Positions 3,307 to 13,644 of a stretch of DNA of 13,644 bases are shown in pieces. How positions within the stretch are numbered: the first letter of the stretch is position 1; the number at the start of each line of letters is the position of its first letter. The stretch spans positions 1 to 13,644 of the forward strand of contig JADHWK010000058.1 in assembly GCA_016783505.1 (NCBI GenBank), written 5' to 3'. Source of the DNA: Candidatus Zhuqueibacterota bacterium. GTDB lineage: Bacteria; BS750m-G25. The notes beneath the pieces are model-generated. The model made no database searches and was not told where the DNA came from. It worked only from the letters and a program-made list of their open reading frames with translations. The translations under genes were made by a program, and so were the position numbers.

Positions 3307-3329
3307 CGCATAAAGTGAGAAGGTGATAT

Positions 3330-3521
3330 ATGTCCAATCAAAAAGTAAGTTTCAAAACTGAAAAAGAGCTCCAAGTGGCAATCTTGCAAGAAAAAGCAAG
3401 AGGAACTCCTGACTTAGAAATCGGTCAGAAATATGGGGTTATATTTAGATATATTGAGCGACCTAATACCATATTGCAAGGACTCAATATTAGTTCCTTG
3501 AAAGAAGGTGATTTATCATGA
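3330..3521 (+). CDS. Small putative helix-turn-helix protein, first gene of the AT-rich cassette
   Basis: This 63-residue protein has no family I can name. It is charged and helical, and residues about 26-45 (TPDLEIGQKYGVIFRYIERP) have the spacing of a helix-turn-helix, with a 'D-E-I-G-x-K-Y-G-V' core, so DNA binding is a fair guess. The start has a good Shine-Dalgarno (GAGAAGGTGAT, just upstream), and nearly the same string, AGAAGGTGAT, precedes the next gene. Its stop overlaps the next start as ATGA (3518-3521), which implies translational coupling. Base composition drops sharply in GC relative to ddl, 23 nt upstream, suggesting acquired DNA. It might be a regulator or antitoxin-like partner of the 258-residue protein; that is inference. 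Confidence 0.72.
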   Translation: MSNQKVSFKTEKELQVAILQEKARGTPDLEIGQKYGVIFRYIERPNTILQGLNISSLKEGDLS

Positions 3522-4294
3522 AAGAAGAGAAATTCACTTGGAAAGATATTGTGAGAAATGCTTTATTAGAATTAGAGGGCCAAGGTCATTTATCTGAGAT
3601 TAATGAGATAGTAGAGGGCCACCCTAAAACTAAAACTAATCCTACATGGCAGGATACTATCCGAAGGGTAGTAAGGCAATATAAGATATTCGAGCCAGTA
3701 CCACCAGAAAGAAGTGGTATTTATAAAGTTGTAGAAGAAATTTCAATAAAACCTGAGTCACAGTGCTTTACCGAGAAACCAGAAATTGATCACGGGATTG
3801 CTCAAGGAATGTTAGTTACACTCGGAAAAACTTATGGATACGAAACCTATGTGCCTCCACATGATCAGACTATTAGAATTTTTCAAGGTAAACCGTTAAG
3901 AGATTTCTTAACGGTCTCCGACTGCACCGATATTTTTAGGGGTCCTAACTTGGCAAAGATTAGAGAAATAGATTCTCTATGGTTTGATGAAGATGATTAC
4001 GGGTTATTTCCAGTTTACGCCTTTGAAGTAGAGGAAACAACAAGAGTAAAATCTGGTTTGGATAGGCTATTAAAAATACCAAGAAGATTTCCTGCTCGAT
4101 TTTTTGTTGTTGGTCCGAGCACAAAAGAGAAAGATTTATTTGAGCAGTATATTAACCAGACACCATTTAGAGACTTTAGAGGTAGATTTAACTTTAGGTT
4201 TTATAAAGAGTTAGAAGAATTGTATAACTCTGCATTGGTTCATAATGACCAGCGAGAACAATTTGGAATCATTGAAAGGTGGAGGCAACCATGA
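3518..4294 (+). CDS. Winged-helix (HARE-HTH-like) plus PD-(D/E)XK-like nuclease candidate
   Basis: This 258-residue protein appears to have two domains. Residues about 5-72 (starting FTWKDIVRNALLELEG, then a conserved-looking 'TWQDTIRRVVRQ' helix) resemble the HARE-HTH / winged-helix module found in restriction and chromatin proteins. Residues about 95-245 contain an acidic pattern, EIDSLWF (D152) followed by FEVEETTRVKSGLDRL (E170, E172, K178) and then a beta strand ARFFVVGP. This D...ExE arrangement and the 'EVE-x-T-x2-V-x-SGL-x-RL' block are like restriction-endonuclease-fold proteins. I therefore infer a DNA-binding nuclease or nuclease-like effector; catalysis is not shown. The start has AAGGTG upstream and overlaps the previous stop (ATGA); its own stop overlaps the next start the same way (4291-4294). 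A cytoplasmic location is expected, as no signal or membrane segment is seen. Confidence 0.82.
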   Translation: MKEEKFTWKDIVRNALLELEGQGHLSEINEIVEGHPKTKTNPTWQDTIRRVVRQYKIFEPVPPERSGIYKVVEEISIKPESQCFTEKPEIDHGIAQGMLVTLGKTYGYETYVPPHDQTIRIFQGKPLRDFLTVSDCTDIFRGPNLAKIREIDSLWFDEDDYGLFPVYAFEVEETTRVKSGLDRLLKIPRRFPARFFVVGPSTKEKDLFEQYINQTPFRDFRGRFNFRFYKELEELYNSALVHNDQREQFGIIERWRQP

Positions 4295-4464
4295 AGTCTA
4301 TAATAACAATTAGATGTTTATGCGGTAGAGAAGTTATACTCAAACTTGTTGGCGGACAGTACCAAGATACATACCAGGCGGAATGCGATTGTGGCCGTAA
4401 GTGGTCTTTAGAAGAACAGTCGGAAGCGATTGCAGAATTATCTGATGAAAACTATGTAAACTAA
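4291..4464 (+). CDS. Small CxC...CxC zinc-ribbon protein
   Basis: This 57-residue protein carries two knuckles, C9-L-C11-G and C32-D-C34-G, about 20 residues apart, as in a zinc ribbon. The two halves before and after the knuckles are short beta-type stretches ending in an acidic tail. ATG at 4291 is preferred over GTG at 4279 because GGTGGAGG (4278-4285) lies 5 nt before it and because the ATGA overlap with the upstream stop repeats the arrangement at 3518. It is the third coupled gene of the cassette. Zinc binding is inferred from the cysteine spacing; the partner or target is unknown. It could be a nucleic-acid-binding accessory subunit. Confidence 0.7.
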   Translation: MKSIITIRCLCGREVILKLVGGQYQDTYQAECDCGRKWSLEEQSEAIAELSDENYVN

Positions 4465-4528
4465 TGTAAAATTCAGAGAACCAAACAAGCGAGAACGCAC
4501 CCCTGCCCATGTCCACTCGATTGTAGAA

Positions 4529-4852
4529 ATGTATGTCAAGTATGCCTTTAACCCTCAACTAACCTTAAAATTAAAGGAGCATATCTTGTCAATGCTTGCT
4601 TCGATTAAACCAGTAAATTCTTTTCCGCCAAGTCTTCAATATTTTAGACCTGAGCATATCGAACCATTCAAAGATTTAGATAGAGTTGGGGAGTTTACAG
4701 TTGAGTTTATTCTTGTTGTTACCGAACTTATGGCAATACAGGAGAAAACGAATTATCCAAAAGGTTCTCTAACCGAGAGTTTATATAGGGATTTTGAAGT
4801 GAAAGATAGGTTCCAAGTGATACAAAAAGCGGTATTAAAAAGACTAAGGTGA
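4529..4852 (+). CDS. Unknown 107-residue protein; true start uncertain
   Basis: I do not recognise this gene. The predicted protein is helical with mixed charge (MYVKYAFNPQLTLKLKEHI at the start, KAVLKRLR at the end), with no membrane segment. ATG at 4529 lacks a Shine-Dalgarno. The same frame stays open back to 4460, and the extra 23 codons (N-V-K-F-R-E-P-N-K-R-E-R-T-P-A-H-V-H-S-I-V-E) look like coding sequence, but contain no ATG, GTG or TTG. The only nearby in-frame ATG, at 4454, is followed at once by TAA. Either a rare start codon is used or a small deletion or sequencing error removed the start. It follows the zinc-ribbon gene directly and shares its AT-rich composition, so it is probably the fourth gene of the cassette. 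Confidence 0.55.
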   Translation: MYVKYAFNPQLTLKLKEHILSMLASIKPVNSFPPSLQYFRPEHIEPFKDLDRVGEFTVEFILVVTELMAIQEKTNYPKGSLTESLYRDFEVKDRFQVIQKAVLKRLR

Positions 4853-4855
4853 AGG

Positions 4856-4978
4856 ATGTGTTCAGAAATTCCGCTGCTTCCCCTAGCACCTTTTGAAAGG
4901 CCAAAGTCCTCCCGACAAGTCGGGATCGGGACTTCCGCTACGCTTCAGCAAGAAAAAGATATCTATTTTCCCGAATAA
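4856..4978 (+). pseudogene. Short 40-codon ORF, probably a gene start cut by a hairpin repeat
   Basis: ATG at 4856 lies 3 nt after the previous stop, with AAGGTG upstream. The first 16 codons (MCSEIPLLPLAPFERP) look like a genuine protein start that I cannot assign. From codon 17 the frame passes through the compound hairpin repeat at 4904-4934 and ends at TAA 4976-4978. The likeliest reading is a fifth cassette gene truncated when the repeat arrived or when sequence to its right was lost. It may still be translated as a 40-residue peptide, but that is uncertain. Confidence 0.35.
4904..4934. repeat. TCCCGA/TCGGGA hairpin repeat, copy 2 (compound)
   Basis: The inner hairpin is TCCCGAC-AA-GTCGGGA (4910-4925). 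An outer pair, AAGTCC (4904-4909) with GGACTT (4929-4934), encloses it with a TCG bulge. It shares the TCCCGA core with the elements at 2085 and 6060. It lies inside the 40-codon ORF, is GC-rich against an AT-rich background, and is not followed by a T tract. Confidence 0.65.
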
Positions 4979-5271
4979 TATCAACTTTTTCCTATCCGGT
5001 CCTAAGACGGGTCACTACCAGGTCTGGCGTTCTTTGAAATATACATAAAATACTTAACTTTAACACATAAACCTCTTCCTCCGTTTCGGAAGTTTAGGGA
5101 ATATTGGCGGCAAATGGATCATGTTAGCCTGATGAAGTTTCATGGCAACAAAAACCAAATGCAATTGAACTTGGCATTGATCATTATCTCAATCTCCCTG
5201 AGAAAAGGCTGAACGGAGTGATTGCAATATAACCGAAAAGTCACAAGTTACTCGCGATAGAAAGGAAGATA
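4979..5271 (+). other. Gene-free stretch with possible coding debris
   Basis: No intact gene is seen here. It holds the first copy of a 30-nt direct repeat (5009-5038). Two open stretches look like remnants. One frame runs from 5006 to a TGA at 5210-5212 and contains KFREYWRQMDHVS. The other, from 5128 to TAA 5230-5232, reads PDEVSWQQKPNAIELGIDHY and continues to NGVIAI. They sit in different frames and meet near 5125, consistent with one small gene broken by a frameshift. I cannot assign a family. A short inverted repeat ATGAA-GT-TTCAT lies at 5132-5143. Confidence 0.35.
5009..5038 (+). repeat. 30-nt imperfect direct repeat, left copy
   Basis: Left and right copies (5009-5038 and 5586-5615) agree at 25 of 30 positions by hand alignment; both start GGGTCACT and end TTCTTTGAA. 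Together they bracket about 550 nt holding the coding debris and the 88-codon gene. No function is assigned. Confidence 0.6.
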
Positions 5272-5538: not shown

Positions 5539-5585
5539 TTTGATGGTAACTTCATCACCTTATAATGTTACAAAAGAATATGATA

Positions 5586-5615
5586 GGGTCACTGACAGGT
5601 TGGGCATTCTTTGAA
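5586..5615 (+). repeat. 30-nt imperfect direct repeat, right copy
   Basis: This copy matches the one at 5009-5038 at 25 of 30 positions. It is followed by a TTGACA (5625-5630) and lies about 100 nt upstream of the RRM gene, so it may mark the right edge of the AT-rich island or belong to the leader of that gene. Confidence 0.6.
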
Positions 5616-5706
5616 TTAAATTAGTTGACATCTACTTCCCAACCTTATTCGGGACTCAAAGCACAGAGACGTAAGGCGAAATTCCGGTATAAATGTTCAA
5701 GATAAA

Positions 5707-5714
5707 AAGGAGGT
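5707..5714 (+). promoter_or_regulatory. Strong ribosome binding site of the RRM gene
   Basis: AAGGAGGT lies 4-5 nt before ATG 5719 and is the closest match to an ideal Shine-Dalgarno in the window. It fixes the start of the RRM protein and suggests high expression. Confidence 0.85.
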
Positions 5715-5718
5715 CAGA

Positions 5719-6024
5719 ATGAATATCTACGTGGGAAATTTGTCGCGTCAGGTCACCGAAGAGGATTTGCAACAGGCTTTTGAGGCCTTCGGGAAGGTCG
5801 AATCCGTCAAAATTATTAAGGACATGTTCAGCGGCGAATCAAGAGGGTTCGGATTCGTGGAGATGCCCGCTAAAGCTGAAGCCCAGGCCGCGATCAATGG
5901 TATGAACGGCAAGGAACTGAAGGACCGAGTCCTTAACGTAAATGAGGCTCGCCCTCGCTCCGAAGGCCGTCGGGGTGGAGGAGGACGAGGCGGAGGAAGA
6001 CAGGGTGGTGGGCGGCGCTGGTAG
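5719..6024 (+). CDS. Single-RRM RNA-binding protein with glycine-rich tail
   Basis: This 101-residue protein is a one-domain RNA recognition motif. RNP2 is IYVGNL (residues 3-8) and RNP1 is RGFGFVEM (residues 42-49), with the usual aromatic residues at Y4, F44 and F46. Residues about 82-101 form an Arg/Gly tail (GRRGGGGRGGGRQGGGRRW), as in bacterial and cyanobacterial Rbp proteins related to plant glycine-rich RNA-binding proteins. Such proteins bind single-stranded RNA in the cytoplasm and are often induced by cold; induction here is only inferred. The gene is monocistronic as far as can be seen: about 180 nt precede it and about 510 nt follow. GC rises again here relative to the AT-rich island, so this is probably core chromosome. 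Confidence 0.95.
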   Translation: MNIYVGNLSRQVTEEDLQQAFEAFGKVESVKIIKDMFSGESRGFGFVEMPAKAEAQAAINGMNGKELKDRVLNVNEARPRSEGRRGGGGRGGGRQGGGRRW

Positions 6025-6051
6025 GTGGCATTCGGACATAATAGAGCCCGC

Positions 6052-6086
6052 CTGCCATAGTCCCGAAGCTTCGGGACGGCTGGCAG
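6052..6086. repeat. TCCCGA/TCGGGA palindrome, copy 3, with outer CTGCCA/TGGCAG arms
   Basis: The core GTCCCGAAGCTTCGGGAC (6060-6077) is an exact 18-nt palindrome. Outer arms CTGCCA (6052-6057) and TGGCAG (6081-6086) extend the foldable stem. It lies 27 nt after the RRM stop. It could stabilise or end the RRM transcript, but no T tract follows, so a REP-like repeat is more likely than a classic terminator. Confidence 0.7.
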
Positions 6087-6405
6087 ATCATAGTAGAACT
6101 TTGCCTAACCCCATTTGAAAGAACAAATTTATGTCAAAAATATAAACCTTCTCGAAAAAAGGCGTTTCGCTTTCATTTCAATCACATTGGAGCACTCTTT
6201 AAATCGGTATTATTTTTAGGGATAATAGGGAGAGAACGGATTCATTACTGGAACCTTTTTTTCTGGTCTTTGTTCAGGCATCCACGACTTTTCCCATTGG
6301 CGATTACTTTTGCGGTCTACGGATTCCATTTTCGAAAGGTTTTTGAAAATTACTGAAATTTATAATGACAAAAAGATTTGCCTTGCATAGCATAAAAGTT
6401 TCCTC

Positions 6406-6488
6406 ATGACCGTCGGGGTCATCCTAATTTTTGCTTAGCAAAAACTTTTTTGTGTTGGATTCGTTAGACGAAATACTCCGTTAGGGAG
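6406..6488. repeat. Cluster of four short hairpins
   Basis: Four consecutive inverted repeats are ATGACC-GTCGG-GGTCAT (6406-6422), TTTTTGC-TTA-GCAAAAA (6428-6444), TTCGT-TAG-ACGAA (6460-6472) and CTCC-GTTAG-GGAG (6476-6488). Three of the four loops are TTA, TAG or GTTAG. The cluster lies about 50 nt before the start of the hydrolase gene. It may be a dispersed repeat or a structured 5' leader. Confidence 0.5.
6428..6451 (+). terminator. Possible intrinsic terminator
   Basis: The 7-bp stem TTTTTGC/GCAAAAA with loop TTA is followed by C and six T residues (6446-6451). The stem has only two GC pairs, so it is weak. If active it would insulate the hydrolase operon from upstream reading. Confidence 0.3.
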
Positions 6489-6537
6489 ATGACAAATCTA
6501 AAGTAAAAGGAATAATAATCATTTAAGGAAGTTTCAT

Positions 6538-7275
6538 ATGCGCACATTATCTGTATTGGTCATTGTTTTTATCGTGGTTTTTATGTTGACAGCGGTTGCG
6601 AAGGAAAAGTATGAAACGGATATCATCAAAACGTCCTCTGGCGACCTGAAGATCACGTTTATCGGCCATGGTACGCTGATGTTTACCTTTAGTGGAATGG
6701 TCATCCATGTCGATCCGGTAAGCCAGATGGCCGATTACACCAAGCTACCGAAAGCCGACCTTATCCTGGTAACCCATGAGCACGGCGACCACTTTGACCC
6801 GAAGGCGCTAGAAATTCTGCGCACTGAGAAAACCGCGCTGGTGTTGACCGAAACCTGTGCCAAGCGGGTTAAAGACGGTATTGTTATGAAGAATGGGGAT
6901 GTTAAAACTATTGAAGGGTTGAAGATAGAGATTGTACCTGCGTATAATATCATCCACATGCGCAAAGAGGGACGTCCCTTTCACCCCAAGGGTGTTGGCA
7001 ATGGCTACGTAATTACCTTTGGCGATAAGAAGGTTTATGTGGCAGGCGACACGGAAAATACTCCGGAGATGAAAAATCTAAAGGGGATCGACATCGCATT
7101 TTTACCGATGAACCTGCCATATACGATGACACCAGAGATGGTAGCTGATGCCGCAAAGGCTTTCAAGCCGAAGATACTTTACCCGTATCACTATGGCAAC
7201 ACTGATACCTCCAAGCTCGTGGAGTTATTGAAGGATATCAAGGGGATCGAGGTGCGCATCCGAAAGATGAAGTAG
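6538..7275 (+). CDS. Exported metallo-beta-lactamase-fold hydrolase (UPF0173/UlaG-like)
   Basis: This 245-residue protein has an N-terminal hydrophobic segment (residues 3-21) ending before KEKYET, so it is probably exported, or anchored to the membrane. The metal-binding motif is H80-E-H82-G-D84-H85, with further likely ligands D171 (VAGDTE) and H218 (YPYHYGN). The blocks 'FIGHGTLMF', 'HVDPV' and 'FHPKGVGNGYVI' resemble UPF0173 and UlaG-type metal-dependent hydrolases, whose substrates vary (lactones, phosphoesters and others); the substrate cannot be read from sequence. AAGGAAG at 6525-6531 supports ATG 6538. The phosphatase gene starts 40 nt downstream, so the two may be cotranscribed. The leader is unusually rich in hairpins. 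Confidence 0.9.
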   Translation: MRTLSVLVIVFIVVFMLTAVAKEKYETDIIKTSSGDLKITFIGHGTLMFTFSGMVIHVDPVSQMADYTKLPKADLILVTHEHGDHFDPKALEILRTEKTALVLTETCAKRVKDGIVMKNGDVKTIEGLKIEIVPAYNIIHMRKEGRPFHPKGVGNGYVITFGDKKVYVAGDTENTPEMKNLKGIDIAFLPMNLPYTMTPEMVADAAKAFKPKILYPYHYGNTDTSKLVELLKDIKGIEVRIRKMK

Positions 7276-7315: not shown

Positions 7316-8653
7316 ATGAATTCAATAAACATTACCGATAAAATTCTTCAATTAGAAGCAGAAAATCGCCGTCTACAAAGGGCGGTGGAGGAACTTTCCA
7401 TTCTCAATGAAATTGCCACCGCAATTAGCTCCACGTTGGCATTAGATCAAATCGTGGTTTTGATTGTCCAAAAATGTGTGAAGCATTTGAAAGTAGAACA
7501 GGCAGCGGTCATGATACTGGCTGAGAAAAAAGAGGAAAAACCATTTCAAACAATGGTTCGCAGGGCAGACACGACTGCGAACGTACTTCCCTATCGCCTC
7601 AATGCCCAATTGACCGGCTGGATGCTGAAACACCAGAAGCCCTTGGTTATTAATGATTTTCCGAATGATGACCGTTTTCAAGGGGTTGCTGAAGAAACGT
7701 TTCCCATACAGTCGTTGTTGAGTGTCCCTTTACTGTCAAAAGGCCGCATGATTGGAGTGCTCACCGTATTTAATAAAAAAGCACGGGAGGGTTACAGCAG
7801 CGAAGATCAACGGTTATTAACCATTATAGCCACCCAGTCTACCCAGGTAATTGAAAATGCCCGCCTTCTTAAAGAAGAGCAGACCTTGATAAAAATGCGC
7901 GAGGAAATACGGTTGGCCCATGATATTCAAAGCAACTTGCTGCCGAAAAAGCCGCCCCAATTAAACGGATATGACATTGCCGGCGAAAGCATCCCCGCCC
8001 AAGTGGTTGGAGGTGATTATTTCGATTTCATCCCGGTGGACGAGAACAGGTTGGCTTTTTGTCTTGGAGACGTCTCAGGCAAAGGGCTGCCGGCAGCATT
8101 GTTGATGGCGAACCTTCAAGCGACGATTCGGGGACAAACTATTATAAAGCCCTCTCCGAAGGATTGTTTACGGCATTCGAACAAACTGCTGTACCAAAGC
8201 ACCGAGTCTCAAAAGTTTGTCACGCTTTTTTATGGAATTTTGGACTCCCAAAAACATCAACTGCGTTATTCCAACGCTGGACATAACAGCCCCCTACTTT
8301 TCAGCGAAGGTGAGGAGCCGGTACCTTTGGAAACCGGCGGGGTTGTTCTAAGCTTTATGGAGAACTTTTCTTATGATGAAGGGGTTGTTTCTTTCAATCC
8401 CGGTGACCTACTATTGATTTATTCTGATGGGATCACTGAAGCCATGGATGCCGGCGATGAAGAATTCGGGGAGGAGAGGCTGGCGGCACTGGTGAAGGAG
8501 AATATGGGGGAGTCCGCCAGCGGATTAATCGAGAAGGTCATTACTGCTGTCAAACGACATGCTGGTGACAGCTCGCAAATGGATGATATGACTCTGGTAG
8601 TCATTCAGAGAGAAAAGAGTAACATTCAATTAGGAGGAGACCATGAAAATTAA
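7316..8653 (+). CDS. GAF-domain PP2C/SpoIIE-type serine phosphatase (RsbU-like)
   Basis: This 445-residue cytoplasmic protein starts with a short coiled coil (residues about 8-40, LQLEAENRRLQRAVEE), followed by a GAF sensor domain (about 33-185, with SLLSVPLLSKGRMIGVLTV) and a helical linker. A SpoIIE/PP2C phosphatase domain covers about 205-435. Metal-binding acidic residues are seen in GGDYFDF (D234), GDVSGKGLPAALLMA (D252), YSDGITEA (D371) and MDDMTLVV (D423, D424), so it should be active. The family removes phosphate from Ser or Thr of STAS anti-sigma antagonists; the GAF domain would take the input signal. The next gene encodes just such a STAS protein, and its start overlaps this gene by 11 nt, so coupled translation is likely. 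No RsbW-type kinase is present in the window. Confidence 0.95.
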   Translation: MNSINITDKILQLEAENRRLQRAVEELSILNEIATAISSTLALDQIVVLIVQKCVKHLKVEQAAVMILAEKKEEKPFQTMVRRADTTANVLPYRLNAQLTGWMLKHQKPLVINDFPNDDRFQGVAEETFPIQSLLSVPLLSKGRMIGVLTVFNKKAREGYSSEDQRLLTIIATQSTQVIENARLLKEEQTLIKMREEIRLAHDIQSNLLPKKPPQLNGYDIAGESIPAQVVGGDYFDFIPVDENRLAFCLGDVSGKGLPAALLMANLQATIRGQTIIKPSPKDCLRHSNKLLYQSTESQKFVTLFYGILDSQKHQLRYSNAGHNSPLLFSEGEEPVPLETGGVVLSFMENFSYDEGVVSFNPGDLLLIYSDGITEAMDAGDEEFGEERLAALVKENMGESASGLIEKVITAVKRHAGDSSQMDDMTLVVIQREKSNIQLGGDHEN

Positions 8654-8984
8654 AAAAGAAATATTAGGCGATGTAGCAGTTTTACACCTGAGCGGCGCCA
8701 TGCTTGGTGGACCGCCCACCTCTGAGATTTTTCCGGCTGAAATCAAGAGTATTATTGATGAAGGCATTAACAAGGTAGTGGTAGATCTTGGAAAAGTGAA
8801 ACGAATGAACAGCACTGGATTAGGGATTCTCATTCGGGGTTACACTTCTCTTCGGAATAATAACGGTGATTTGAAACTTGCCAACCTCAATCCGTTGATG
8901 AAAGGCGTATTGGTTACGACCAAACTTGACACCATCTTTGAGAGTTATCCTAGCATAGATGAGGCTGTAGATAGCTTTGGTTAA
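8643..8984 (+). CDS. STAS-domain anti-sigma factor antagonist (RsbV/SpoIIAA-like)
   Basis: This 113-residue protein is a single STAS domain of the normal length. The phosphorylation loop reads R-M-N56-S57-T58-G-L-G, where most relatives have D-S-S/T-G; S57 is the likely phosphorylated residue. AGGAGG lies just before ATG 8643, inside the end of the phosphatase gene, and gives a clear start. In the partner-switch pathway the dephosphorylated form binds an anti-sigma kinase and releases its sigma factor or target. The neighbouring phosphatase is the obvious partner. The kinase acting on S57 is not in the window unless the Hanks-type kinases downstream do this, which would be unusual. The gene ends about 260 nt before the kinase remnant. 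Confidence 0.94.
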   Translation: MKIKKEILGDVAVLHLSGAMLGGPPTSEIFPAEIKSIIDEGINKVVVDLGKVKRMNSTGLGILIRGYTSLRNNNGDLKLANLNPLMKGVLVTTKLDTIFESYPSIDEAVDSFG

Positions 8985-9242
8985 AAAGAACGGCAGGATT
9001 GGGGTTTCAGGTTAGTTTTGAATTAAGCAATTTAGAACATCTTGCCCATATAATAATCCGACATTGTGATAACCATTTTTAAGAGCTACGAAACTGCTGA
9101 TCGGGCTATCGCCAGTTTTAAGTGATGGACAACTGTAGTTAAATCGGTGAAGTTGCGAGATACTATTTGGTTCTTTAAGGCCCGCCGGCTTTTTGGCATG
9201 TCGTAGATTCGCCAGTGTTTTGGCGGACTGGAGTAATGGTCT
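8985..9242. other. Spacer between the STAS gene and the kinase region
   Basis: Nothing convincing is seen here. A weak hairpin CGCCA-GTGTTT-TGGCG lies at 9210-9225. An 84-codon frame on the opposite strand (9012-9266) overlaps the kinase remnant and resembles nothing I know, so I do not call it a gene. Confidence 0.4.
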
Positions 9243-9314
9243 ATGATTGGAAAGACAATATCGCATTATCGAATTTTAGAAAAGCTCGGCGGCGCCCCAC
9301 GGCCAACAAACTAA
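9243..9314 (+). pseudogene. Truncated N-terminus of a third Hanks-type kinase
   Basis: ATG 9243 opens a 23-codon frame beginning MIGKTISHYRILEKLGG, which matches the N-terminus of the kinase at 12381 (MIGKTISHYKILEKLGE) up to the glycine-rich loop, then becomes unrelated (APRPTN) and stops at TAA 9312-9314. The following kinase gene begins in the same frame only 9 nt later and repeats the KTISHYRI segment. The fragment is therefore the 5' end of a lost or recombined paralogue. At the DNA level it differs from both kinases, so it is not a recent copy of either. It may supply the original promoter and ribosome binding region for the gene behind it. Confidence 0.75.
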
Positions 9315-9323
9315 TGTGAAGAT

Positions 9324-11363
9324 TTGAAAGATTTAATAGAAAAAACCATTTCTCATTATCGAATCATTGAGCCATTGGGGCAAGGGGGAATGGGTGTCGT
9401 CTACAAAGCCGAGGACACCAAGCTTAAACGCACTGTTGCACTGAAGTTCCTGCCTCCAGAGCTAACCCGTGACCCTGATGCCAAAGAGCGCTTTGTCCAC
9501 GAGGCGCAGGCGGCCTCGGCTCTTCAGCATAACAACGTCTCCACGATTCATGAGATTGATGAAACCGATGAAGGACAAATGTTCATATGCATGGATTACT
9601 ATGAAGGTGAGGCGTTGAATGAAAAGATCAGGAGCGGTCCTATCAAGATTGAAGAAGCCCTTGACATTGCCATCCAGGTTGCACAGGGTCTGAATAAGGC
9701 ACACAAGAAAGGGATCGTGCATCGAGACATCAAGTCGGGAAATATCCTCGTGACCGAAGACGGCGTAGTGAAAATTGTGGACTTCGGTCTGGCCAAACTG
9801 CGTGGGCAAACAAAGCTTACCAAAGAAGGTACTACTTTAGGAACAGCAGCGTATATGTCTCCCGAACAAGCGCGGGGGGAAGAGGTTGATCACCGGACAG
9901 ATATCTGGTCGCTGGGTGTTGTTCTTTATGAGATGATTACTGGACAACTTCCCTTTAAAGGCGATTATGAACAGGCGGTGATCTATTCGATTATGAATGA
10001 AGACCCGGAACCAATGACAGGCTTACGAACCGGCGTGCCGAGGGCATTGGCGCAGGTTGCAGAGAAAGCTATGCGAAAGGACAACGAAGAGCGGTATTCG
10101 AAGGTCGATGACATGATAACTAGCCTCAGGTCTTTGAGGAAGAAGCTCGAATCTGGCCCTTCGGATAAGTTAGAACCAGAATTGACTCTTAGAAAAAGAA
10201 GATACATTTACCTCGGCATCACGATTTTGGTCTTCTCTCTCATTGCAGCAGCTCTCTTTTTCTGGCAAAGAACGGAGACTAGACGGATTGAAGCCATAGT
10301 TGCCCGTTTGCAACCCGCTGTGGAGGCCGGTCGCTTTGATGACGTGTTTGAGATATTAAATGATTCGGGCCTGGAACTTCAAGATGACAGGGTTGAGATG
10401 CTTACGAAGCAGGTAGCTGGAACGCTATCAATTCAAAGTACACCCTCGAAGGCAAAAGTGACTTTGGCTCGCGTTCAATCTACACCCACCTTGTCAGTGG
10501 CAGAGCCAGTGAGCATCGGACGCACACCCCTTGAAGGCCATGCGTTAGTTGCAGGGGAATACTTCGTCAGTATGATGCTCGAGGATATGACACCACTCGA
10601 ATTTCTTGTACAGGTGGTGCCTGGTGAGTCTTTGCGAATCAACCGTACTCTTCTCAGGGCGAATAAAGAGTTGGCTGGTATGGTAAGGATTGAGAAGGAA
10701 ATTTCGCAAAATGGCATCTCAATCCCAGCGTTTTTTATTGATAAACATGAAGTAACCAACGCGGAATTTTTTAATTTTATCGCTGCCGGCTGTTATAGGG
10801 TAAAGAAATTCTGGCCTGAAGATATTATCATAAACGGTAATCCAACTCCTCGGGAGTCAGCTATAAGAAGTTTCGTTGACCAGACCGGCATACCAGGTCC
10901 GCGCTTTTGGTCAGGAGGAAAATATCCAGACGGCAAGGAAGGTCACCCTGTGGTAGGCATCTCTTGGTATGAAGGAATGGCATATGCTCGCTGGGTGGGA
11001 AAAGATCTGCCTACATGGGACCAGTGGTGGCTAGCAGCGCTCAGCGAAACCAGCAGTATTTTTCCTTGGGGGAGTGACGTGAGGACAACTCACTTGCGCG
11101 CAAACTTCGGGTTGAAAGGTACCCAACCAGTAGAATCTTACCCCTTGGGAATAAGCCCATTCGGGTGTTTCGACATGGCTGGCAACGTACGGGAGTGGCT
11201 GCGCGATTCGGTGTCACCCAGCAGACTTCGCACAGTAGTTGGTGGGTCGTGGAAAGATCCTTCCTACATGTTTGAACCCTCTCACGCCGAATCGTTTTAT
11301 CCAGAGTTTGCTGGCGAGGATATTGGGTTTCGATGTGTGAAATCTATTCCCGATGACCAATAA
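9324..11363 (+). CDS. Membrane Ser/Thr kinase with PEGA and FGE/SUMF1-like C-terminal domain
   Basis: This 679-residue Hanks-type kinase has a glycine loop (G19-QGGMG), K41 in VALK, H133-R-D135, N140 and D153-F-G, so it should be active. One transmembrane helix lies at about 294-314. Outside the membrane follow a PEGA-like beta domain (about 368-446, LSIQSTPSKAKV) and an FGE/SUMF1-type domain (about 452-672) with DMAGNVREW, GGSW and GFRC. The cysteine pair used by true formylglycine-generating enzymes is not seen near GGSW, so this domain is more likely a binding or C-type-lectin-fold sensor. The start is TTG 9324 with no clear Shine-Dalgarno; relatives start with M-I-G-K where this gene has L-I-E-K (ATA for ATG), so the start may have been altered by the rearrangement just upstream. 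A secreted hydrolase gene follows 21 nt later. Confidence 0.93.
   Translation: MKDLIEKTISHYRIIEPLGQGGMGVVYKAEDTKLKRTVALKFLPPELTRDPDAKERFVHEAQAASALQHNNVSTIHEIDETDEGQMFICMDYYEGEALNEKIRSGPIKIEEALDIAIQVAQGLNKAHKKGIVHRDIKSGNILVTEDGVVKIVDFGLAKLRGQTKLTKEGTTLGTAAYMSPEQARGEEVDHRTDIWSLGVVLYEMITGQLPFKGDYEQAVIYSIMNEDPEPMTGLRTGVPRALAQVAEKAMRKDNEERYSKVDDMITSLRSLRKKLESGPSDKLEPELTLRKRRYIYLGITILVFSLIAAALFFWQRTETRRIEAIVARLQPAVEAGRFDDVFEILNDSGLELQDDRVEMLTKQVAGTLSIQSTPSKAKVTLARVQSTPTLSVAEPVSIGRTPLEGHALVAGEYFVSMMLEDMTPLEFLVQVVPGESLRINRTLLRANKELAGMVRIEKEISQNGISIPAFFIDKHEVTNAEFFNFIAAGCYRVKKFWPEDIIINGNPTPRESAIRSFVDQTGIPGPRFWSGGKYPDGKEGHPVVGISWYEGMAYARWVGKDLPTWDQWWLAALSETSSIFPWGSDVRTTHLRANFGLKGTQPVESYPLGISPFGCFDMAGNVREWLRDSVSPSRLRTVVGGSWKDPSYMFEPSHAESFYPEFAGEDIGFRCVKSIPDDQ
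9498..9611 (+). repeat. 114-nt tract shared with the second kinase gene
   Basis: This tract, coding for the alpha-C helix to hinge region (HEAQAASALQHNNV to YYEGE), matches 12546-12659 at 112 of 114 positions by hand alignment. Both differences are silent third-position changes. On both sides the genes diverge in sequence and codon choice, so the tract is a likely gene-conversion patch. Confidence 0.8.
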
Positions 11364-12380: not shown

Positions 12381-13644
12381 ATGATCGGCAAAACCATATC
12401 GCATTACAAAATTCTCGAAAAGCTTGGCGAGGGTGGCATGGGGGTTGTGTACAAGGCCGAGGACATCAAACTTAAACGCACCGTTGCCCTTAAGTTCCTG
12501 CCGCCGGAATTAACCCGGGACGAGGAAACAAAGGAGCGCTTCATCCACGAGGCGCAGGCGGCCTCGGCTCTTCAGCATAACAACGTATCCACGATTCATG
12601 AGATTGATGAGACCGATGAAGGACAAATGTTCATATGCATGGATTACTATGAAGGTGAGACGTTGAAAGATAAGATTAAACATGGGCCACTCAAAATAGA
12701 AGAAGCTCTCAACATTGCTGTCCAGGTTGCTAAAGGTCTGGAAAAAGCCCATGAACAGGGGATTGTACACAGGGACATCAAACCTGCCAACATTATGATT
12801 ACTAATGATGGAGTGGTTAAAATCGTGGATTTTGGGCTGGCCAAGTTAGCCGGGCAGACCGGGCTCACAAGGAATGATACGACCATGGGTACAGTGTCGT
12901 ATATGTCACCTGAGCAGACGCGTGGCGAAGGGGTTGATCATCGAACAGATATTTGGTCTTTAGGCGTTGTTCTTTATGAAATGATCACCGGGCAATTACC
13001 ATTTAAAGGAGAATATGAACAAGCGGTGATTTATTCGATTTTGAATGAAGACCCAGAGCCAGTGAAGGCGCTACGGACTGGCATTCCGATGGAGCTTGAG
13101 CGGATATTGAATAAGGCTTTGTTAAAAAATGCGGGCGAACGTTACCAACTCGTAGACAAGATGTTGGATGATATGAGATGGCTTCAAAAATCATTAGAAA
13201 TAGGGATTATAGAACAACGACTAACCAAGATTGTTTCTCCTTATAGGTGCCGGATCGCGGTATTGCCCCTTACCAATATCAGTCCTAATCCGGAAGATGA
13301 ATATTTTGCTGATGGCATGACAGAGGAACTCATTTCAACGCTATCTAAAATTAATGAATTAAGAGTCATCGCCCGTACGTCTATTATGCAATATAAAAAT
13401 ATAGCGAAGAGCGTCGCTGAAATTGGTCGAGAATTGAAGGTTGGCAATGTACTCGAAGGCAGCATCCGAAAAGCCGCCAACAAGCTGCGTATTACGGTAC
13501 AGCTCATAGATTCACAAAGTCAAGAGTATCTCTGGTCGCAAGATTATGATCGAGAGTTCAAGGACATATTTACGATACAAAGCGATATCGCCCATAGGGT
13601 TGCAGACGCGTTGAGAGTCCAATTAATGGGGGGAGAACAGAAAC
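12381..13644 (+). CDS. Ser/Thr kinase with TolB-like domain, 3' end outside the window
   Basis: The frame is open from ATG 12381 to the end of the window (421 codons seen). The kinase domain has G16-EGGMG, K38 in VALK, H130-R-D132-IKPAN and D150-F-G, all intact. From about residue 290 (RIAVLPLTNIS, EDEYFADGMTEEL, VLEGSIRK) a TolB-N/FlgO-like domain follows, as in many bacterial kinase or adenylate cyclase proteins that end in TPR repeats; the repeats would lie beyond the window. No transmembrane helix separates the two domains, unlike the kinase at 9324, so this one is probably cytoplasmic. No strong Shine-Dalgarno precedes the start, 57 nt after the hydrolase stop. It is a close paralogue of the upstream kinase in the first 270 residues. 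Confidence 0.94.
   Translation, partial: MIGKTISHYKILEKLGEGGMGVVYKAEDIKLKRTVALKFLPPELTRDEETKERFIHEAQAASALQHNNVSTIHEIDETDEGQMFICMDYYEGETLKDKIKHGPLKIEEALNIAVQVAKGLEKAHEQGIVHRDIKPANIMITNDGVVKIVDFGLAKLAGQTGLTRNDTTMGTVSYMSPEQTRGEGVDHRTDIWSLGVVLYEMITGQLPFKGEYEQAVIYSILNEDPEPVKALRTGIPMELERILNKALLKNAGERYQLVDKMLDDMRWLQKSLEIGIIEQRLTKIVSPYRCRIAVLPLTNISPNPEDEYFADGMTEELISTLSKINELRVIARTSIMQYKNIAKSVAEIGRELKVGNVLEGSIRKAANKLRITVQLIDSQSQEYLWSQDYDREFKDIFTIQSDIAHRVADALRVQLMGGEQK
12546..12659 (+). repeat. 114-nt tract shared with the first kinase gene
   Basis: This is the partner of 9498-9611 and lies at the equivalent codons of the paralogous kinase. Two mismatches were found by eye, at positions equal to codon third bases. 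Confidence 0.8.

Follow-up and report, generated by a model that had tools for sequence, protein, structure and literature searches.

A restriction enzyme (REase) without its methylase is expected to kill its host. Ershova et al. (2012; PMC3488263) listed 74 cases of solitary REases with corrupted methyltransferases and quoted the example of PaeR7I, an REase that in the absence of its methylase neither killed nor restricted, while Oliveira et al. (2014; PMC4176335) argued that degradation is seldom the origin of solitary genes. DpnI and its kin (Helbrecht et al., 2024; PMC11037411) combine a winged helix with a PD-(D/E)XK nuclease and seldom have a methyltransferase gene adjacent. The locus described here is a degenerate Type II restriction-modification (R-M) cassette with an apparently solitary REase, a known kind of locus in an exceptionally clear and widespread form, whose new part is the serial, cross-domain erosion of the methylase and a partner slot of small proteins. 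It resembles Type II R-M systems in its REase fold, its N6_N4_Mtase partner and, in three related loci (L013, L017 and L022), a methyltransferase-then-REase order, but the methyltransferase is deleted or absent in the window and most relatives, and the catalytic residues are D/E/E instead of the D/E/K triad. A D/E/E set is also present in BamHI. As with the solitary REases of PMC3488263, a full-length REase lies beside a corrupted methyltransferase; here, however, one family has undergone many distinct deletions in many phyla of both domains, and selection has been measured on methyltransferase-free copies. Compared with the DpnI group (PMC11037411), the winged helix is N-terminal and nearer to forkhead domains, and some relatives do have a methyltransferase partner. 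With the scraps of its methylase still in place, this REase family is a counter-example to the argument of PMC4176335.

The window, by which we mean the whole 13,644-nucleotide stretch analyzed, is part of a 2.5-Mb, 60% complete metagenome-assembled genome (MAG) of a Candidatus Zhuqueibacterota bacterium, which has no close relative among the genomes searched. After ddl, GC content drops from 50.6% in that gene to 36.7% over positions 3307-4852, a low-GC block of ~1.5 kb, with a parallel fall in GC3 from 0.66 to 0.28. A sequence-only reading had pointed to this AT-rich block, correctly, and everything that it listed there was found in place: frames of 63, 258, 57 and 107 residues, ATGA overlaps at 3518-3521 and 4291-4294, and the repeated string AGAAGGTGAT, which the window contains at 3318 and 3503 and nowhere else. 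Its fifth frame, at 4893-5048, overlaps a dispersed repeat. The system that it left unnamed can now be named, as the remnant of a Type II R-M cassette. Farther along, the window contains two Ser/Thr protein kinase genes (9324-11363 and 12381-13643) with a near-identical kinase domain and differing C-terminal parts. The features of the block and its right flank are the following.

3330-3521, plus strand: DNA methyltransferase stump, residues 1-58 (HTH part) and KEGDLS (tblastn, alignment, junction)
3501-3521, plus strand: deletion junction, KEGDLS codons and stop, holding AGAAGGTGAT (right-hand junction shared with relatives)
3518-4294, plus strand: REase-like protein of 258 aa, winged helix and PD-(D/E)XK nuclease (AF2, folds, PADLOC, alignment)
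3518-3742, plus strand: winged-helix domain, residues 1-75, forkhead/H1-like (structure matches)
3743-4285, plus strand: nuclease domain, residues 76-256 (Nt.BspD6I, EcoT38I and BstEII fold matches)
3971-3973, 4025-4027 and 4031-4033, plus strand: catalytic-site residues D152, E170 and E172, respectively (26-row alignment)
4291-4464, plus strand: P3, a 57-aa CxC...CxC ribbon protein, with its ATG at 4291 and adjoining the REase
4466-4852, plus strand: P4 homology, full length ~127 aa (alignment with the L013, L036 and L048 copies)
4887-4994, unstranded: dispersed repeat, found again on contigs 84 (twice), 35 and 62 of this genome

An AlphaFold (AF2) model of the 258-aa protein (pLDDT 90.3, pTM 0.88) bears out the winged helix and PD-(D/E)XK fold proposed from the letters alone. 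The winged helix is fused to the nuclease domain as in DpnI, but precedes it, whereas in DpnI the nuclease comes first. Forkhead domains are the best matches of this winged helix (FoxP4, 6xat, Z 10.1, being the best forkhead), which has a short extra helix at residues 37-40 and also matches the winged helix of DpnI (4kyw, Z 7.7). Against Pfam Forkhead the protein scores 17.2 bits, under the cut-off of 27, and it has no Pfam match to HARE-HTH, the module named in the earlier reading. The nuclease domain matches the catalytic part of Nt.BspD6I (5liq) with Z 8.0 over 141 residues and EcoT38I (7e8r) with Z 7.3, which are moderate values with no single strong match, while Foldseek places BstEII on its top row, with E-values above 0.01. 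We assign the nuclease fold because several restriction enzymes agree and because of the D...ExE motif. PADLOC also recognizes the protein as REase_II (E 3e-4). D152, E170 and E172 are invariant in 26 aligned homologues, most of them methyltransferase-free. The protein thus has the restriction nuclease fold and conserved active site of a Type II R-M enzyme, and a lack of nuclease fold at these three residues, which would have spoken against the earlier reading, was looked for without being found. Pfam, NCBIfam and PHROGs provide no confident family for the REase, P3 or P4.

The 63-aa ORF1, on the other hand, is not the independent HTH gene that it had been taken for. Its residues 1-58 match a full methyltransferase, that of L013, at 76% (tblastn), and the methyltransferase alignment reveals that they are followed, in frame, by six mid-protein codons (KEGDLS) and a stop codon overlapping the ATG of the REase; the catalytic motifs are deleted. 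ORF1 therefore derives from an N6/N4 DNA methyltransferase. The right-hand junction of this deletion is also found in L014, L015 and L025, and in degraded form in L027. It explains the second copy of AGAAGGTGAT, which had been read as the ribosome-binding site of the second gene: the string is there, but it consists of leftover methyltransferase codons, an inherited coding scrap now positioned as a putative ribosome-binding site. Over the first 50 codons, the HTH part of the stumps has a pN of 0.175 versus 0.165 in intact methyltransferases. Stump codons thus diverge like those of intact methyltransferases, so the stumps are recent, selected, or both. The stump in the window carries helix-breaking changes.

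How general this loss is can be seen in the relatives. One scan for homologues of the 258-aa protein returned 27 loci in 27 genomes, and the window, L114 and L150 bring the total to 30 loci. Of these, three (L013, L017 and L022) have an uninterrupted methyltransferase frame, and there the REase is preceded by a full DNA methyltransferase (299-318 aa) that contains motif I (VLDYFCGAGTT) and motif IV (HPPY); that of L022 matches Pfam N6_N4_Mtase (E 2e-23) and PADLOC MTase_II (E 1e-70). This L022 protein (5577-6533) has a 19-aa insertion just before motif IV, missing from its relatives, and may be inactive. The methyltransferase is C-truncated in one locus (L029) and reduced to an N-terminal stump in seven (window, L014, L015 with L057, L019, L021, L023 and L025). 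A C-terminal or internal scrap persists in L016 and L034, and a trace in L026, L027 and, less surely, L028; the region is cut off by the contig end in L036, and in the remaining 13 loci no remnant is detectable. Stump length varies, and the internal deletions of the window, L014, L015, L025 and L027 differ despite their common right-hand junction (KEGDLS followed by ATG or GTG), while L016, L019, L021/L023 and L029 represent separate deletion events; these distinct deletions come with an open REase frame. In the REase tree, the backbone of which is poorly resolved, the three rows with a full methyltransferase do not group. We conclude that the methyltransferase was lost repeatedly. The window itself holds a full-length REase with only the 63-aa stump, and no full methyltransferase, nearby.

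The REase is 57-86% identical to that of the window across many bacterial phyla and in archaea, its hosts including Cloacimonadota, Dehalococcoidia, Atribacterota, Actinomycetota, Planctomycetota, WOR-3, Zixibacteria and Methanophagales archaea, among others, and it is carried by only 5 of the 393 genomes of one class. Such identity over distant phyla, together with this sparse occurrence, indicates horizontal spread, as had been supposed when the block was called acquired. We found no relative in viral contigs and no match in phages, and plasmids gave just remote nuclease or winged-helix matches, with nothing for P4 or the small protein PA (see below). The remote homologues (L009-L012 and L108-L111, ~30% identity) combine the same nuclease domain with different N-terminal domains, which in L010 and L012 look EVE/PUA-like on visual inspection, and no annotated methyltransferase lies near the Deinococcus and Azospirillum plasmid copies. 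In L019, the REase region occurs twice on one contig as an inverted copy (1593-2934 and 7673-9027), probably an assembly artefact.

The REase is under purifying selection. Median dN/dS is ~0.08, with synonymous sites near saturation, and is 0.145 (bootstrap 95% 0.088-0.230) between L024 and L150, two archaeal copies from one site that are both methyltransferase-free. These values, well below 1 between copies without methyltransferase, are difficult to reconcile with a dying relic, in which the REase would be silent or inactive and its decay merely pending, as are a reading frame open in nearly all loci and catalytic residues that never vary. Signs of decay do exist, in the disrupted REases of L033 and L034, in a second copy on contig 29 of our genome that keeps just the REase tail, and in the window itself, with its helix-breaking changes in the stump and its startless P4; we nevertheless find this explanation unlikely. 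What we favor, and hold to be probable though far from certain, is that the block is a Type II R-M cassette, acquired horizontally, whose methyltransferase was deleted and whose endonuclease has been kept as a stand-alone defence nuclease. The winged helix would read the target and the D/E/E site would cut it, and the host would survive since the nuclease would ignore its ordinary DNA, a modification or other foreign feature being required. Alternatively, a linked small protein (P3 here) or translational coupling to the stump might restrain it. In many hosts, what is left of the methylase can still be read, more eroded in some than in others, beside a selected nuclease. Matched pairs with and without methylase also exist, so that the survival of an REase beyond its methylase becomes directly testable. 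The REases with an intact methylase in L013 and L017 are, however, ~83-85% identical to that of the window and give no evident sign of a changed specificity, which counts against our reading.

How do hosts survive? A PacI-type explanation, in which the site is missing from the host, is rejected for the site types tested, since every 4- and 6-base palindrome, every interrupted palindrome tested and every 6-mer occurs in the 293-390 kb covered of each of the window, L018 and L035 hosts. GGGNCCC is low in the L018 and L035 hosts (observed/expected 0.29 and 0.26), which may be due to composition. Protection could also come from a positionally unrelated host methylase, the nuclease then being an ordinary Type II REase. 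Such separated systems have been reported (PMC3488263), the window genome has eight PF01555, one PF02086 and one PF00145 matches, most hosts have several methylases, and a full methyltransferase of the cognate family, found in 4 of the 27 genomes, is in one of them (that of L014) on a contig other than that of the REase. However, the window genome, a 60% complete MAG, has no cognate-family member besides the stump, and the same coincidence would be required in many unrelated hosts. Furthermore, PF01555, PF02086 and PF00145, which cover the three main methylase classes, give no match at E 1e-5 in the assemblies of the L018 and L035 hosts, although these are MAGs and a cognate methylase may be missing from the data or belong to another family, such as PF02384. 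We regard this second explanation as possible but rather unlikely. From the purifying selection, the two assemblies without main-class methylases and the lack of any missing site among those tested, the predicted nuclease probably spares unmodified host DNA, via modification dependence, an inhibitor or partner, or some other control, e.g., conditional expression. By analogy, the PaeR7I case warns that some methylase-free REases may idle.

Modification dependence deserves separate consideration. A type IV-like enzyme would have a winged helix that reads a modified base that the host lacks, making a methyltransferase dispensable or even harmful. Several architectures of winged-helix fusion endonuclease recognize m6A (PMC11037411), and our fold matches include the winged helix of DpnI; the EVE/PUA-like domain preceding the nuclease in the remote L010 and L012, and a D12 methylase gene split by the cassette in L031, are consistent with the same idea. 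Yet an intact N6/N4 methyltransferase persists beside a closely similar REase in L013 and L017, the domain order is the reverse of that in DpnI, and forkhead domains, which do not read m6A, are better matches than DpnI, all of which makes this a tentative and rather doubtful alternative to a stand-alone defence nuclease derived from a Type II cassette.

As for the small genes, the fourth frame has the 107 codons originally noted (4529-4852, from an inner ATG at 4529) but is not a complete gene: homology starts at ~4466, relatives are 127 aa long, and the 5' end has no in-frame ATG, GTG or TTG. P4 is therefore probably decayed or N-truncated in the window; a structure model of it was unusable (pLDDT 44.7). 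In each of the six genomes with P3, it adjoins the REase; the window genome has a further, relic copy. That relic (L048; contig 29, ~6430-7060, minus strand) consists of a frame-shifted scrap of the REase tail, a P3 with an internal stop, and P4, and sits just behind a gene for a 291-aa DNA methyltransferase. More generally, the REase is followed immediately (within 0-12 nt in most loci) by a small gene from one of several families, namely the ribbon P3, the QFDDW protein PA, the TTKKH protein PB, PE, PG or PF. PA is found in ten genomes, every copy being on the REase contig and close to the REase, and the measured members of P3, PA and PB have a pI of 4.5-4.8. The fixed four-gene unit first proposed is thus not supported: only some loci have P3 behind the REase, fewer still have P4, and elsewhere the slot is taken by other small genes. 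A functional operon encoding an HTH regulator, the nuclease, a ribbon and a helper protein, suggested by the overlapping frames and by a stump HTH that diverges no faster than intact methyltransferases, is very improbable given stumps of differing length, the 13 loci without remnant, a P4 without start codon and small genes that change between loci. The slot could have another meaning, which we think quite unlikely: the REase might be a methyltransferase-free module restrained by slot proteins of several unrelated families. If true, this would be a nuclease with protein antidotes in place of self-methylation, spreading over bacteria and archaea.

The genomic places occupied by the cassette are varied, and its homologues adjoin R-M or other defence genes in several of them, in line with the neighborhood anticipated from the window. 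In Methanophagales, it sits between GNAT and radical-SAM genes, a junction that is empty in some relatives (68 nt in L134 and L136) and occupied in others by an unrelated DNA methyltransferase (L139) or a metallophosphoesterase (L143), both named by eye from translations. Across L133-L150, this junction is an insertion hotspot whose content differs between species. A transposon with target duplication was considered and rejected, since comparison of filled and empty archaeal sites reveals that an intergenic stretch was replaced, with no duplication or inverted ends. By eye, the gene upstream of the cassette is co-directional in most loci. The D12 (Dam-type) methylase gene split by the cassette in L031 lies at ~7463-9550, and in L023 the cassette adjoins a DprA-like gene and one for a phosphoribosyltransferase, a pair reminiscent of ShosTA/PsyrTA.
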